A DNA stretch of 54,917 bases from Sharpea porci (GTDB lineage: Bacteria > Bacillota_I > Bacilli_A > Erysipelotrichales > Coprobacillaceae), in assembly GCF_009695655.1 (NCBI RefSeq), contig NZ_VUNM01000014.1, positions 1 to 54,917 of the forward strand, in the 5' to 3' direction. The translations under genes were made by a program, and so were the position numbers. Below the pieces are notes generated by a model. The model was not told the origin of the DNA and searched no databases. It worked only from the letters and a program-made list of their open reading frames with translations. The stretch's first letter is position 1; each line of letters opens with the position of its first letter. This document shows, piece after piece, positions 25,268 to 29,894 of this stretch.

Positions 25268-25570
25268 TTATTTAATTTCAAGACATTTACCATCAGGTCC
25301 TGGGGTTGTATTCAGGTAGTCGGCAATTTCTTTTTTCGCTATCGAAGATGCAACAACACACTTATTAGGCGTTGTAACCTCCCCTTCGACAAGTGCCTCA
25401 GCTAATCCATGACATCCTGGATATCCACAGCCACCACAGTTTACCCCTGGCAGTTTATCTGTTACAACATCAATTCTTTCATCAACTTCAACCTTAAGAT
25501 ATTTATGTGCAATACCAAGCATCAATCCTAAGATTCCACCAATAATCATTAATGCAATAACCGCATTCAT
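25268..25570 (-). CDS. rnfB: Short RnfB: membrane anchor plus one Fe-S domain, no ferredoxin domains
   Basis: RnfB normally takes electrons from ferredoxin and is 190-330 residues or more. This one has 100: an N-terminal helix (2-22), then the 4Fe-4S domain with C45, C48, C53 and C71 (GVNCGGCGYPGC), and a stop after CLEIK. The CxxCxxCxxxCP ferredoxin domains are absent. The sequence after the stop contains the operon terminator and no Cys-rich frame, so a simple frameshift does not explain it. The ATG overlaps the upstream gene by four bases. It is last in rnfCDGEA-x-B, the usual clostridial position. The electron-entry route must differ from the textbook complex. Confidence 0.85.
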   Translation of the reverse strand: MNAVIALMIIGGILGLMLGIAHKYLKVEVDERIDVVTDKLPGVNCGGCGYPGCHGLAEALVEGEVTTPNKCVVASSIAKKEIADYLNTTPGPDGKCLEIK

Positions 25571-25734
25571 TTCTTTTCACCTTCTTTATAATGTCCACAG
25601 GCTATATTGGCACATCCCTGACAGGCCTTAAAATCTGTTTGGCAGTCTTTAGGGGCTTTTGTATGTTTGTTTAAAAGATATGTACCGATATAAAGAATAA
25701 CAAGTAAAACAAACCAGATGATTGCATAAAGCAT
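25567..25734 (-). CDS. 55-residue membrane protein with four cysteines, inside the rnf operon
   Basis: The protein has one transmembrane helix (residues 3-21) and a short tail with C31, C38, C41 and C46 (C-x6-C-x2-C-x4-C, core ACQGCANIAC). Its ATG overlaps the rnfA stop by one base (TAATG) and its end overlaps rnfB by four, so it is tightly coupled to both. I do not know it from standard rnf operons. The layout, one N-terminal helix then a small Cys cluster, resembles NqrM, which helps build the iron centre between NqrD and NqrE, the homologues of RnfE and RnfA. It could also carry a cluster itself in place of the missing RnfB ferredoxin domain. Both roles are inference. FeoB-associated Cys-rich proteins look similar as well. 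Confidence 0.75.
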   Translation of the reverse strand: MLYAIIWFVLLVILYIGTYLLNKHTKAPKDCQTDFKACQGCANIACGHYKEGEKK

Positions 25735-26309
25735 TAGACAACACCTGCAATTCCCATAATGGCACAAGCCATAATACCTGCTGTAATTAGAGCTATTGGT
25801 GCGCCTTTAAATGATGTTGGTACATCTGCTATATCAAGTCTTTGACGTATTGTCGCAAAGATATAGATGACAATTAAGAAGCCCAATGGTACTGCAATAC
25901 CAGCTACAGCAGCTTCAAGTAAGTTATAATTTGCGGTAATATTATCTAAAGCTACACCAAGAACAGCGCAGTTTGTGGTTATGAGAGGAAGATAAACACC
26001 CATGGATTTATAGATATCCGGACTTGTTTTCTTTAAAAACATTTCCAAAAACTGCACCAATGATGCAATGACAAGAATAAATGTAATAAGATCCATATAG
26101 GTAATATCAAGTGGTACAAGGACATAATAATAAAGCAGCCAGGTAATAATAGATGACAAGAAAATAACAAAGATAACAGCAATTCCCATATTCAGAGCAT
26201 TCTTGGGATTCTTCGACAGTCCCATTAAGGGGCAAATTGCATAGAACTTCGAGAGAACGACATTATTGACAAATGTCAGGGCAATAAAAAGCCCAAAGAG
26301 CTTCATCAT
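25734..26309 (-). CDS. rnfA: RNF complex subunit A
   Basis: RnfA is a six-helix membrane subunit that with RnfE holds a [2Fe-2S] cluster in the membrane. The 191-residue protein has the family segments FVNNVVLSKFYAICPLMG and TTNCAVLGVALD, each with the conserved Cys. ATG overlaps the rnfE stop (ATGA). Length is normal. Confidence 0.95.
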   Translation of the reverse strand: MMKLFGLFIALTFVNNVVLSKFYAICPLMGLSKNPKNALNMGIAVIFVIFLSSIITWLLYYYVLVPLDITYMDLITFILVIASLVQFLEMFLKKTSPDIYKSMGVYLPLITTNCAVLGVALDNITANYNLLEAAVAGIAVPLGFLIVIYIFATIRQRLDIADVPTSFKGAPIALITAGIMACAIMGIAGVV

Positions 26310-26974
26310 TTCTTCACACTTCCCTTCTTCTCAAGATTCTCATCAACCTTGATTGCTTTCTTCATTTTACGGCTATTGATGAAGGCAAGAATACAGCCAA
26401 GGGTCAAGAAAGCACCGGCTGGTAATTTAAATAATGAAATCGCATAATCATCAAATAAATGCAGATCAAAGAAAACCTGTGTACTATTGAATGGATTATA
26501 GAATGATAATCCCCCTGTTCCAATGATTTGTCTGAAAAAGGCAATAATGAAGACAGCTAGCGTATAGCCAATCCCCATCCCCAGGCCATCAAGAATAGAA
26601 TCAAAAGGATGGTTCTTGCTTGCGAAACTTTCAGCCCTTCCAAGAATAATACAATTGACGACTATCAATGGGATAAAGACACCTAAACTTGTATAGAGCG
26701 AAGGTGTATAGGCATTCATTAGAAGCTGCACGCATTTCACAAGTGTGGCAATAATAATGATGAAGACGGGTATACGTATTTCATCAGGAATAATCTTACG
26801 TAATAGTGAAATGATGAAATTACTTGCCACTAAGACCACTGTAACAGCCATGCCCATTCCTATCGCATTAGTCAGTGAAGTGGAGATAGCGAGTGAAGAA
26901 CACATGCCTAGCATCATGACAAAAATAGGATTTTCTTTCCATATTCCATTGGTCAATATTTTAAGCTTTTTCAT
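26306..26974 (-). CDS. rnfE: RNF complex subunit E
   Basis: RnfE is the pseudo-symmetric partner of RnfA. The 222-residue protein has NPIFVMMLGMCSSLAIS and PLIVVNCIILGRAE, the cluster cysteines, and six helices. ATG at 26974 follows GGAGGGAGAAT; the open frame extends upstream through rnfG but this is not coding. The C-terminus is a Lys-rich tail. Confidence 0.95.
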   Translation of the reverse strand: MKKLKILTNGIWKENPIFVMMLGMCSSLAISTSLTNAIGMGMAVTVVLVASNFIISLLRKIIPDEIRIPVFIIIIATLVKCVQLLMNAYTPSLYTSLGVFIPLIVVNCIILGRAESFASKNHPFDSILDGLGMGIGYTLAVFIIAFFRQIIGTGGLSFYNPFNSTQVFFDLHLFDDYAISLFKLPAGAFLTLGCILAFINSRKMKKAIKVDENLEKKGSVKK

Positions 26975-26984
26975 ATTCTCCCTC

Positions 26985-27506
26985 CTACTTATAATGCTTT
27001 TGATAATGTGCGGTAGCCTGTTCAATACCTTTGACAACGGCTTTAGAAGAAATTGTTGCACCTGAAAGTGTATCAATGCCTGATCCAATTTGTTTCTTAT
27101 TAATACGATCAGCCATTTCTTTCGTCCCTACACGACTACCAAAGCCACTTGTCTCCGTAGTAACATCAATAGGTGAATAGCCTAAATACCGACCACTTTG
27201 ATCAAGAGCAACAAGATAAACAATATGACCACCATATCCAGGTGTAGAAATCTTATAAACATAGCCTTCTCGCTTCTCATCTTTTTTAGCTTCATAGATA
27301 TTCTCAATTAAAGGATATTCTTTATGATCAAAAGAAACAGATTGAAAGTGACTTTGTTTATAGATAGCATTAAGTTGTTTTGTTTCGGCTTCTTTTTGAG
27401 CCTGAGTGATAATCGGATGAGTGAGCTGGAAAACATAGCTCATAGCTCCAGCAGACAGTCCTGCAACAAGCGAAAGAAATAAAGCAAGCTTAATAATGAG
27501 CTTCAT
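26985..27506 (-). CDS. rnfG: RNF complex subunit G, covalent FMN carrier
   Basis: RnfG carries FMN bound to a threonine by ApbE. The 173-residue protein has an N-terminal anchor helix and the flavinylation motif SGAT(I) with acceptor Thr151 (chosen start). ATG at 27506 has AGGTG at good distance and overlaps rnfD by 17 bases. An upstream in-frame GTG is less likely. Confidence 0.94.
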   Translation of the reverse strand: MKLIIKLALFLSLVAGLSAGAMSYVFQLTHPIITQAQKEAETKQLNAIYKQSHFQSVSFDHKEYPLIENIYEAKKDEKREGYVYKISTPGYGGHIVYLVALDQSGRYLGYSPIDVTTETSGFGSRVGTKEMADRINKKQIGSGIDTLSGATISSKAVVKGIEQATAHYQKHYK

Positions 27507-28593
27507 AGATTTCACCTACTTTACTTTGTTTTGGTGGCTCTAAAGTCGTACTGACACCACCAATAATTCCTGTGCCCACACATAGTGCCACAAGAACAAT
27601 AATGAGCTGTTTTTTAAGATGTTGATTAGTTCGACCGAGGATGAGTGTATCAATCCAAGGTGTCAACATATTCATAATAAGGATGGAGAAAAGGACACCT
27701 TCAGGATAGTTGGCTTTTAAGCGAATCAGCATTGTCAGAAAGCCAAGACTGATGCCATAGATAATTTTACCTAGCGGTGAACTTGGTGAGGTAACAGGAT
27801 CGGTTGCCATCAAGATAGCCCCAAGCATCAGGCCACCAAGCATCAAGTGTCGTGCTATATTGACGCATGGATGAATGCCTAATACAAGCGCACTTACCAA
27901 AGCGAACAAGGCCACACTGCCAAGATAGCTAATTGTAATACGTGGATCATAGACATGGCGAAGTGCTAAAATAATACCGATGATTACCAATAGAATAATC
28001 AATCCTTCGCCAAGAGCTCCATCATGCATACCAAACAATAAATCACTTAATGAATAATGGAAAGCCGATGTTCCAAACCAATTTGTTTTTGCGAGAGCAG
28101 TAGCTGGCGTTGGGGATGTTGTTGCATCCACAAAGGATAAACTATTCGTCAGCTTTGAAGCAAAGGAAAGATGAACAACAACACGTCCTACAAGAGCTGG
28201 ATTAAAGATATTCTGACCAAAGCCCCCATAAACAAGCTTACCAAAGAATGTCGCAATAAAAGCACCAATAACTACAACATAATAAGGAGTACCAATAGGC
28301 AATGTCAGTGTAAAGATAATTGGAGTATTGAGACAGAATGAATCGGTAACAATACTTTTAAGTGGCTTTTGGTGAATAGAAGCCCATATGCCTTCCGTAA
28401 TAACAGCTGTCATAATCGCAAAGAAATACATGCCTAATGCTTTGAGACCATAATTGATATTATGGCGATATATCTGCATGATGATGGAAGCTATTGCAAG
28501 CGTTCCTTCAGCAATCAATAAATCACGCATGATGGTGGCTGTTGACTGAGGCTGACGATAGGCAGGCGTTGTGCGTTTCATTTTAATAATCAT
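27490..28593 (-). CDS. rnfD: RNF complex subunit D
   Basis: RnfD is a membrane subunit of the NqrB/RnfD family, with up to ten helices and normally a covalent FMN. The 367-residue protein has GGFGQNIFNPALVGRV and LMATDPVTSP. The expected flavin motif ([S/D]xxATP[L/M]) reads DATTSPTPATAL at 156-167, so the acceptor could be T162 or T165. AAGGAGG lies eight bases before an ATG overlapping rnfC by four bases. Confidence 0.93.
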   Translation of the reverse strand: MIIKMKRTTPAYRQPQSTATIMRDLLIAEGTLAIASIIMQIYRHNINYGLKALGMYFFAIMTAVITEGIWASIHQKPLKSIVTDSFCLNTPIIFTLTLPIGTPYYVVVIGAFIATFFGKLVYGGFGQNIFNPALVGRVVVHLSFASKLTNSLSFVDATTSPTPATALAKTNWFGTSAFHYSLSDLLFGMHDGALGEGLIILLVIIGIILALRHVYDPRITISYLGSVALFALVSALVLGIHPCVNIARHLMLGGLMLGAILMATDPVTSPSSPLGKIIYGISLGFLTMLIRLKANYPEGVLFSILIMNMLTPWIDTLILGRTNQHLKKQLIIVLVALCVGTGIIGGVSTTLEPPKQSKVGEIYEAHY

Positions 28594-29894
28594 GCTTTTT
28601 TCCTCCTTAAAGTCAGTCCATAGCGACGTTTGCCTTTTGCGACAAAATCCGTCACTTCAATTTTACTTGGACATATATAAGAACACATGCCGCACTCTAC
28701 ACAGCGCATAACATCGAGTTTACCTAATAAATCACTATCATTGGCCTTTTCTGCCTGCATAATCCGGACAGGCTGTAAATGCATGGGGCAATGTAATGTA
28801 CATTCACCACATTTAAGACATGCGACCGTATGTTCTTCCTGCTTCTTGAGAACGGTTATCGCATTCATATATTCAGAAATGACAAAACGGTCATTCATGA
28901 TTGAACGGCCCATCATCGGTCCTCCTGCTAGCACATAGCCTTCACCATCAGCCACATATCCACCTATAGCTTCAATGATTTCATGAACCGGTGTTCCTAC
29001 TCTTACATCAATATTTGTAGGATATTTAATACCATTGCCACTCACTGTCACAAGACGGGAAATAACAGGCATCCCTGTACGTATCCCCTGACTTAAGCTA
29101 ATAGCACTAGCGGCATTATCAACGATGACATGAGCTTCGCTAGGTAAGCGGTCATATGTACGTTTCGTGAGTGTTTCAATCAACAAGCGTTCCCATCCCA
29201 TTGGATAGACATCAGGCACTTGAGTGACAGTTATATGTTCATAGTTCTTCGCTGTAGCCTCTAATTTTGCATAGAGTTCTGGCTTACCAACCTTAATCGC
29301 AATAATAACTCTTTGAGCCTGTGCTGCTTTTCGAAAATACTCTGCCCCATCACATAGTGCTTGCGTCTGACGCATCATTTCATGATAGTCACTTGTGATA
29401 TAAGGTTCACACTCAACACCATTGATAATAATTGTATCAATATCTTTGACAGCCTCATATTTTTTGTAGGCAGGAAAGCCTGAACCACCCATACCAACAA
29501 TACCAAGCTGTTTGATTGCCTCAATGATATCCTGTTGTGTCATATGATCAGGGTCCTTGATATCAATAACTTTGACTTTCTCGTCTAGATGATTATTCGC
29601 AATAATCACATGGTTTTGTTGGCGCTTAGTCGCATGCATGCGCTTTTCTATTCCCGTAACTACGCCTGAAACAGTTGCATAAAGAGGTACATACATACTT
29701 TTGCGGAGTGCCAAAAGTGTCCCAATCTTCACTTCATCTCCTTCTTTAACACATATTTCAAAATCGGTTGCAGTTCCATCGACTAGTGGAATGGCAATCG
29801 TATCACCAACTGGACATTGTGCAATTTCTCCATGCATGGTCAAATCTTTATGACCTGCAAGGTGCACTCTCCCTTTGCCGGTAAACAATCCCAT
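28590..29894 (-). CDS. rnfC: RNF complex subunit C, NADH-binding
   Basis: RnfC carries the NAD(H) and FMN site and two 4Fe-4S clusters. The 434-residue protein has the flavoprotein region GMGGSGFPAYKKYE and YITSDYHEMM, then CLKCGECTLHCP and CVECGMCSYICP. Length is normal for clostridial RnfC. It is the first gene of the operon, with AAGGAGGGGG before ATG. Since RnfB is short, RnfC holds most of the recognisable cluster motifs. Confidence 0.96.
   Translation of the reverse strand: MGLFTGKGRVHLAGHKDLTMHGEIAQCPVGDTIAIPLVDGTATDFEICVKEGDEVKIGTLLALRKSMYVPLYATVSGVVTGIEKRMHATKRQQNHVIIANNHLDEKVKVIDIKDPDHMTQQDIIEAIKQLGIVGMGGSGFPAYKKYEAVKDIDTIIINGVECEPYITSDYHEMMRQTQALCDGAEYFRKAAQAQRVIIAIKVGKPELYAKLEATAKNYEHITVTQVPDVYPMGWERLLIETLTKRTYDRLPSEAHVIVDNAASAISLSQGIRTGMPVISRLVTVSGNGIKYPTNIDVRVGTPVHEIIEAIGGYVADGEGYVLAGGPMMGRSIMNDRFVISEYMNAITVLKKQEEHTVACLKCGECTLHCPMHLQPVRIMQAEKANDSDLLGKLDVMRCVECGMCSYICPSKIEVTDFVAKGKRRYGLTLRRKKA

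Follow-up and report, generated by a model that had tools for sequence, protein, structure and literature searches.

A small cysteine-tailed membrane protein encoded between rnfA and rnfB represents a new family tied to RNF complexes with a short RnfB and is a candidate for their electron entry

Among the pumps with which anaerobes conserve energy, RNF is a major one. In the structurally characterised RnfB proteins a C-terminal multi-cluster domain accepts electrons from ferredoxin, and the small flexible cluster domain of RnfB hands electrons to the 2Fe-2S cluster of RnfA/RnfE (PMC12174285); the topology of RnfB places its cysteine-bearing tail on the inside (PMC12174285). NQR depends on NqrM for its intramembrane 2Fe-2S cluster (PMC12174285), and the cysteine-rich FeoB-associated family (PF12669), which Pfam and published work (PMC8749426) link to feoB and not to rnf, has a cysteine motif associated with iron binding (PMC8749426).

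Investigation of the window, the whole stretch of 54,917 nucleotides of Sharpea porci DNA, revealed an operon of the order rnfC-D-G-E-A-[small gene]-B on the minus strand, running from 29894 to 25268. All of its established genes were recovered by Pfam and NCBIfam models, which confirmed the names that a sequence-only reading of this DNA had given to the neighbours (rnfC-D-G-E-A and an rnfB of 100 residues): rnfC (28590..29894; TIGR01945, E 1.4e-104), with an FMN domain and a C-terminal Fer4 pair (PF01512 and Fer4 models), rnfD (27490..28593; PF03116, E 1.3e-74), the FMN_bind gene rnfG (26985..27515; PF04205, TIGR01947), rnfE (26306..26968; TIGR01948, E 5.2e-74), rnfA (25734..26309; TIGR01943, E 4.8e-69), and rnfB (25268..25570). 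Cys26 and Cys114 of RnfA are invariant in the RnfA alignment and are expected to be the ligands of the intramembrane 2Fe-2S cluster. The RnfB is of a short form, comprising a transmembrane helix and one PF04060 FeS domain (residues 40-72, 25355..25453, E 9.6e-14, with the spacing C-x2-C-x4-C-x17-C) without Fer4. A scan for the operon promoter gave a signal no higher than the shuffled expectation.

The small gene between rnfA and rnfB (25567..25734, minus strand; 55 amino acids, MLYAIIWFVLLVILYIGTYLLNKHTKAPKDCQTDFKACQGCANIACGHYKEGEKK), defined by the ORF, family alignments and class-wide searches, starts with an ATG at 25734; the overlap is 1 base with the rnfA stop and 4 bases with rnfB. These overlaps, the single helix and the cysteine pattern C-x6-C-x2-C-x4-C (Cys 31, 38, 41 and 46), all described by the sequence-only reading, were borne out by the ORF list and by AlphaFold2, which models a single helix at residues 2-23 (25666..25731) with a pLDDT of about 90 and a low-confidence tail; the helix is predicted N-out/C-in (AlphaFold2 and the K/R distribution), and the cysteine segment C31-x6-C38-x2-C41-x4-C46 (25597..25644), defined from family alignments, is predicted to be cytoplasmic. 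A sister species carries a copy of 80% identity, with dN 0.14, dS 0.68 and dN/dS near 0.2, which indicates that the small ORF is a genuine coding gene under selective constraint.

Using the window protein alone as the query, homologues at E 1e-4 or better were found in more than half of 60 relatives, and in 30/30 loci first inspected the gene sat between rnfA and rnfB, in most cases overlapping its neighbours or separated from them by just a few bases. An alignment of 22 members has N22, T25, P28, C31, C38, C41 and C46 invariant, while a diverse alignment of 56 members retains as invariant only P28 and the three cysteines C38, C41 and C46 (C-x2-C-x4-C), N22 being nearly so and the tail outside this core changing fast. 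A lack of cysteine conservation, which the sequence-only reading had named as refuting its proposal, is thus not what is seen, but the four are not equally conserved: C31 is substituted across whole lineages and replaced in many members. About 15 sequences carry a cysteine farther downstream in its stead, and in about 17 of 108 homologues there are just the three of the core. A fixed three-cysteine core with a movable fourth ligand would point to a metal or Fe-S site rather than a structural disulfide. Since positive charges follow the helix (K/R behind it exceed K/R ahead of it in 107/108 homologues), the cysteine tail is predicted to be cytoplasmic, matching the topology of RnfB.

The window protein has the features that define the family, namely the transmembrane helix, N-x-x-T-x-x-P, C-x2-C-x4-C and presence with a short RnfB. 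Searches of NCBIfam, PHROGs and PDB sequences gave no match to it, Pfam gave none that is credible, and a literature search found nothing on the gene. The small gene founds a real, previously unnamed family of accessory proteins, new and uncharacterised, that belongs to a known complex and occurs in gut and environmental bacteria, in about 150 of the species sampled; in a search beyond the class, all of the matches listed lie inside it. In family f14, solitary extra small genes with a downstream fourth cysteine (D-x-C-E) were seen at five loci, in genomes that hold several RNF sets.

Regarding known families, the nearest profile was the N-terminal half of the short RnfB (93% over 56 columns), followed by the FeoB-associated cysteine-rich proteins (89% over 19 columns), with 45% for the control pair of FeoB-associated proteins and RnfB; these percentages rest on the helix and the CxxC core, are partly a matter of composition and are no proof of homology. 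The N-terminal region of RnfB has, like the small protein, a single N-terminal helix, a predicted cytoplasmic tail and C-x2-C-x4-C, and the two genes are adjacent. However, the small protein is without the conserved LPG-NCGxCGYPGC motif and has its fourth cysteine upstream (C31), or downstream in some lineages; neither it nor its homologues matched PF04060, whose pattern is C-x2-C-x4-C-x16/17-C; the spacing of the three-cysteine core is shared with that domain and the position of the fourth cysteine is not. Like the small protein, NqrM (PF04400, DUF539) is small, has one transmembrane helix and a four-cysteine tail and is tied to an Rnf/Nqr-type pump, but the small protein is tied to the short-RnfB RNF and not to NQR: it was found in or accompanying rnf and was absent from a genome in which just an NQR-like set was seen. 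The cysteine spacing of NqrM differs as well. Kinship with NqrM, suggested by the sequence-only reading, was not upheld, C-x2-C-x4-C being instead the spacing of RnfB's own FeS domain. The window protein had no PF04400 match at E 1 (the membership cut-off is 22 bits), PF04400 is not in the best 25 most-matched families for the 56 homologues, and the single low-scoring PF04400 hit of the window's genome (E 0.87) maps away from the small gene, so that membership was rejected. PF04400 was detected in 0/296 genomes of the class at E 0.001, a threshold at which no control genome matched either. In function, the small protein may even so act in maturation as NqrM does.

The FeoB-associated family PF12669 also combines a single helix with a cysteine tail, and 20/56 members of the small family match it weakly (best E 1.1e-4); homologues at two loci (L211 and L216) score 17-18 bits. 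The window protein had no PF12669 match at E 1, and none of the PF12669 matches listed in the window's genome is the small gene, the one above the cut-off lying on another contig (C76); the window protein is thereby rejected as a member, and the two families may be remotely related.

The RnfB accompanying the small gene is nearly always about 90-130 residues long, and every companion RnfB checked was short, with a transmembrane helix and one (rarely two) PF04060 domains and no polyferredoxin domain. The RnfA-anchored scan of 80 operons did not pick its loci by the small gene and is a less biased test of this tie: the gene follows rnfA directly in 19/19 short-RnfB operons and is found in 0/58 operons with a long RnfB (261-341 amino acids, Fer4-type motifs), the other 3/80 having no recognisable RnfB. 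The correlation with a short RnfB for which the sequence-only reading had suggested looking is thus present; among the carriers are Massilimicrobiota timonensis, Candidatus Stoquefichus massiliensis, Solobacterium sp. and Faecalitalea sp. The long-RnfB genomes of the class all belong to one genus (g96), and 0/5 of them have the small gene. On the tree of RnfA and RnfE one single change separates short from long RnfB, so the link to RnfB length does not represent many independent events and may reflect descent together with this line of RNF complexes. The short-RnfB form is an ancient type of the pump. The case for a causal link rests on the co-losses, which together with the empty sites provide the independent evidence. 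As separate observations, RnfB proteins of 184-192 amino acids with a duplicated PF04060 and without Fer4 occur in family f9, and in one f9 genome, G099, two small genes lie close to such an rnfB. The rnf operon of g96 (family f6) is of the Clostridia type, clusters with Clostridia on the RnfA and RnfE tree and was probably transferred in as a whole.

Among the 296 genomes of the class sample, with Rnf/Nqr genes scored by PF02508 and the small family at E < 1e-6, Rnf/Nqr genes are present in 168/296, and the small family was detected in 143/168 of these versus 3/128 of the negative genomes. The gene does not, therefore, occur equally in genomes lacking rnf, and the coupling to rnf claimed from sequence stands. 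Two of the three negative carriers (G245 and G290) are 85-86% complete; the third, G228, reported as 96% complete and without detectable rnf, has a member with E 2e-9 and a longer basic tail, possibly a remnant. No strong match to the small family came from about 20 RNF genomes in which no long RnfB was detected; some of them have diverged copies. Seven genera each include one genome with both RNF and the small gene and one with neither, with G228 in one of them (g120) as an exception; this pattern speaks for repeated joint loss of the two. At least 9 of the 10 genomes listed with 2-3 short rnfB genes have 2-3 small genes (hand count), and no small gene was found in G213 (93% complete), the sole genome with just an NQR-like set seen.

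In several families the small gene lies outside the rnf operon, in a locus of the order aspS-(tcdA)-small gene-dCMP deaminase, and another unlinked position is near phosphomannomutase and ung. Translation of the neighbours gave hisS-aspS-tcdA-dCMP deaminase-PDZ-LspA-RluD, ruling out that the unlinked loci are flavin or extracellular-electron-transfer operons, as ORF lengths alone had suggested. At the dCMP-deaminase site the gene is in place in 4 genomes with a short RnfB and cleanly missing from 6 without RNF and from 4 with a long RnfB; one further genome (G257) is uninformative, its contig ending too early. The gene thus vanishes when its RNF is absent or replaced, though not adjacent to it, and the empty sites are the strongest single evidence for a functional dependence on the short-RnfB RNF. 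Taken with the operon scan (19/19 versus 0/58), this pattern indicates that the small gene serves the short-RnfB RNF specifically.

The short RnfB retains the flexible cluster domain alone. That a large clade (gut Massilimicrobiota, Stoquefichus, Solobacterium and Faecalitalea among its members) is without the polyferredoxin domain of RnfB raises the question of how electrons enter, and a small protein tracking exactly this RNF type is the obvious candidate. It probably carries or delivers an Fe-S cluster feeding electrons into the short-RnfB RNF, and the reading preferred here, with a probability of roughly 0.5, is that it is an Fe-S subunit which faces the cytoplasm and supplements the truncated RnfB where electrons enter. 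This reading draws on the co-occurrence with Rnf/Nqr genes, the strict coupling to the short-RnfB RNF, the empty sites, the copy number and the absence from G213, as well as on the RnfB-like C-x2-C-x4-C core, the profile match of 93% versus 45% in the control, and the RnfB-like predicted topology. The single helix would anchor the protein with its N-terminus outside and a roughly 30-residue cysteine tail, by prediction, in the cytoplasm, where the tail would ligate an Fe-S cluster through C-x2-C-x4-C and the movable fourth ligand. Sitting by RnfA/RnfB, the protein would stand in for the missing RnfB input domain and either receive electrons from soluble ferredoxin or dock ferredoxin, and electrons would then pass through the single FeS domain of the short RnfB to the intramembrane 2Fe-2S cluster of RnfA/RnfE. 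The proposed slot, ferredoxin electron entry, is that of the C-terminal polyferredoxin domain of long RnfB, which has no sequence relation to the small protein and holds 2-7 clusters against at most one. It is conceivable, at slightly worse than even odds, that the Bacilli-type RNF is a distinct architecture in which a one-cluster RnfB and a movable mini Fe-S protein, a seventh redox subunit, replace the polyferredoxin RnfB.

Two features sit uneasily with a relay subunit: the three-cysteine homologues (about 17/108) would be unusual for an electron-transfer cluster, and departure of the gene from the rnf operon in several families would be more typical of an assembly factor. Both suit a dedicated NqrM-like maturation factor, whose cysteine tail would supply RnfA/RnfE, or the FeS domain of the short RnfB, with iron or a nascent cluster, the protein itself being no subunit of the finished pump; three-cysteine members would fit a transient donor, the single helix with a cysteine tail recalls NqrM, and the weak matches to PF12669, an iron-system family, point the same way. 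As an RNF-specific equivalent of NqrM, such a factor would likewise be new. However, the RNF complexes with long RnfB need the same RnfA/RnfE cluster and yet have the small gene in 0/58 operons, the NQR-like-only genome is without it, and copies rise with RNF number, an increase that would be unnecessary for a shared catalyst; we regard this explanation, the main rival, as possible, if somewhat unlikely. Of the two roles offered by the sequence-only reading, maturation factor and substitute cluster carrier for the short RnfB, the second thus fits the coupling to RNF and short RnfB better, and membership of the NqrM family is dropped.

Respiratory complexes commonly contain small single-helix subunits, and the tight placement between rnfA and rnfB would also suit a structural accessory subunit stabilising RnfA-RnfB, with cysteines that bind zinc or form no redox centre. 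An invariant Fe-S-type C-x2-C-x4-C within an otherwise fast-changing tail, with a spacing equal to that of the FeS domain of RnfB, makes this improbable. Far less credible still is a FeoB-associated protein that serves iron uptake and stands in rnf operons by chance: the weak PF12669 matches (20/56) and the profile match of 89% over 19 columns are set against the window protein's lack of any such match at E 1, the PF12669 matches listed in its genome, none of which is the small gene, and a presence that follows the short-RnfB RNF.

Regarding other pumps and subunits in these bacteria, G213 (L113:2169-3251) and G266 (L114), both of family f14, have an NQR-like set with a Fer2-FAD-NAD (NqrF-type) gene after the RnfA/NqrE homologue, and such sets may mature without NqrM, since PF04400 had no match class-wide, nor in any control genome. 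RnfD or RnfG homologues of 520-735 amino acids are encoded in several Bacilli RNF operons (four loci noted), suggesting extra fused domains.
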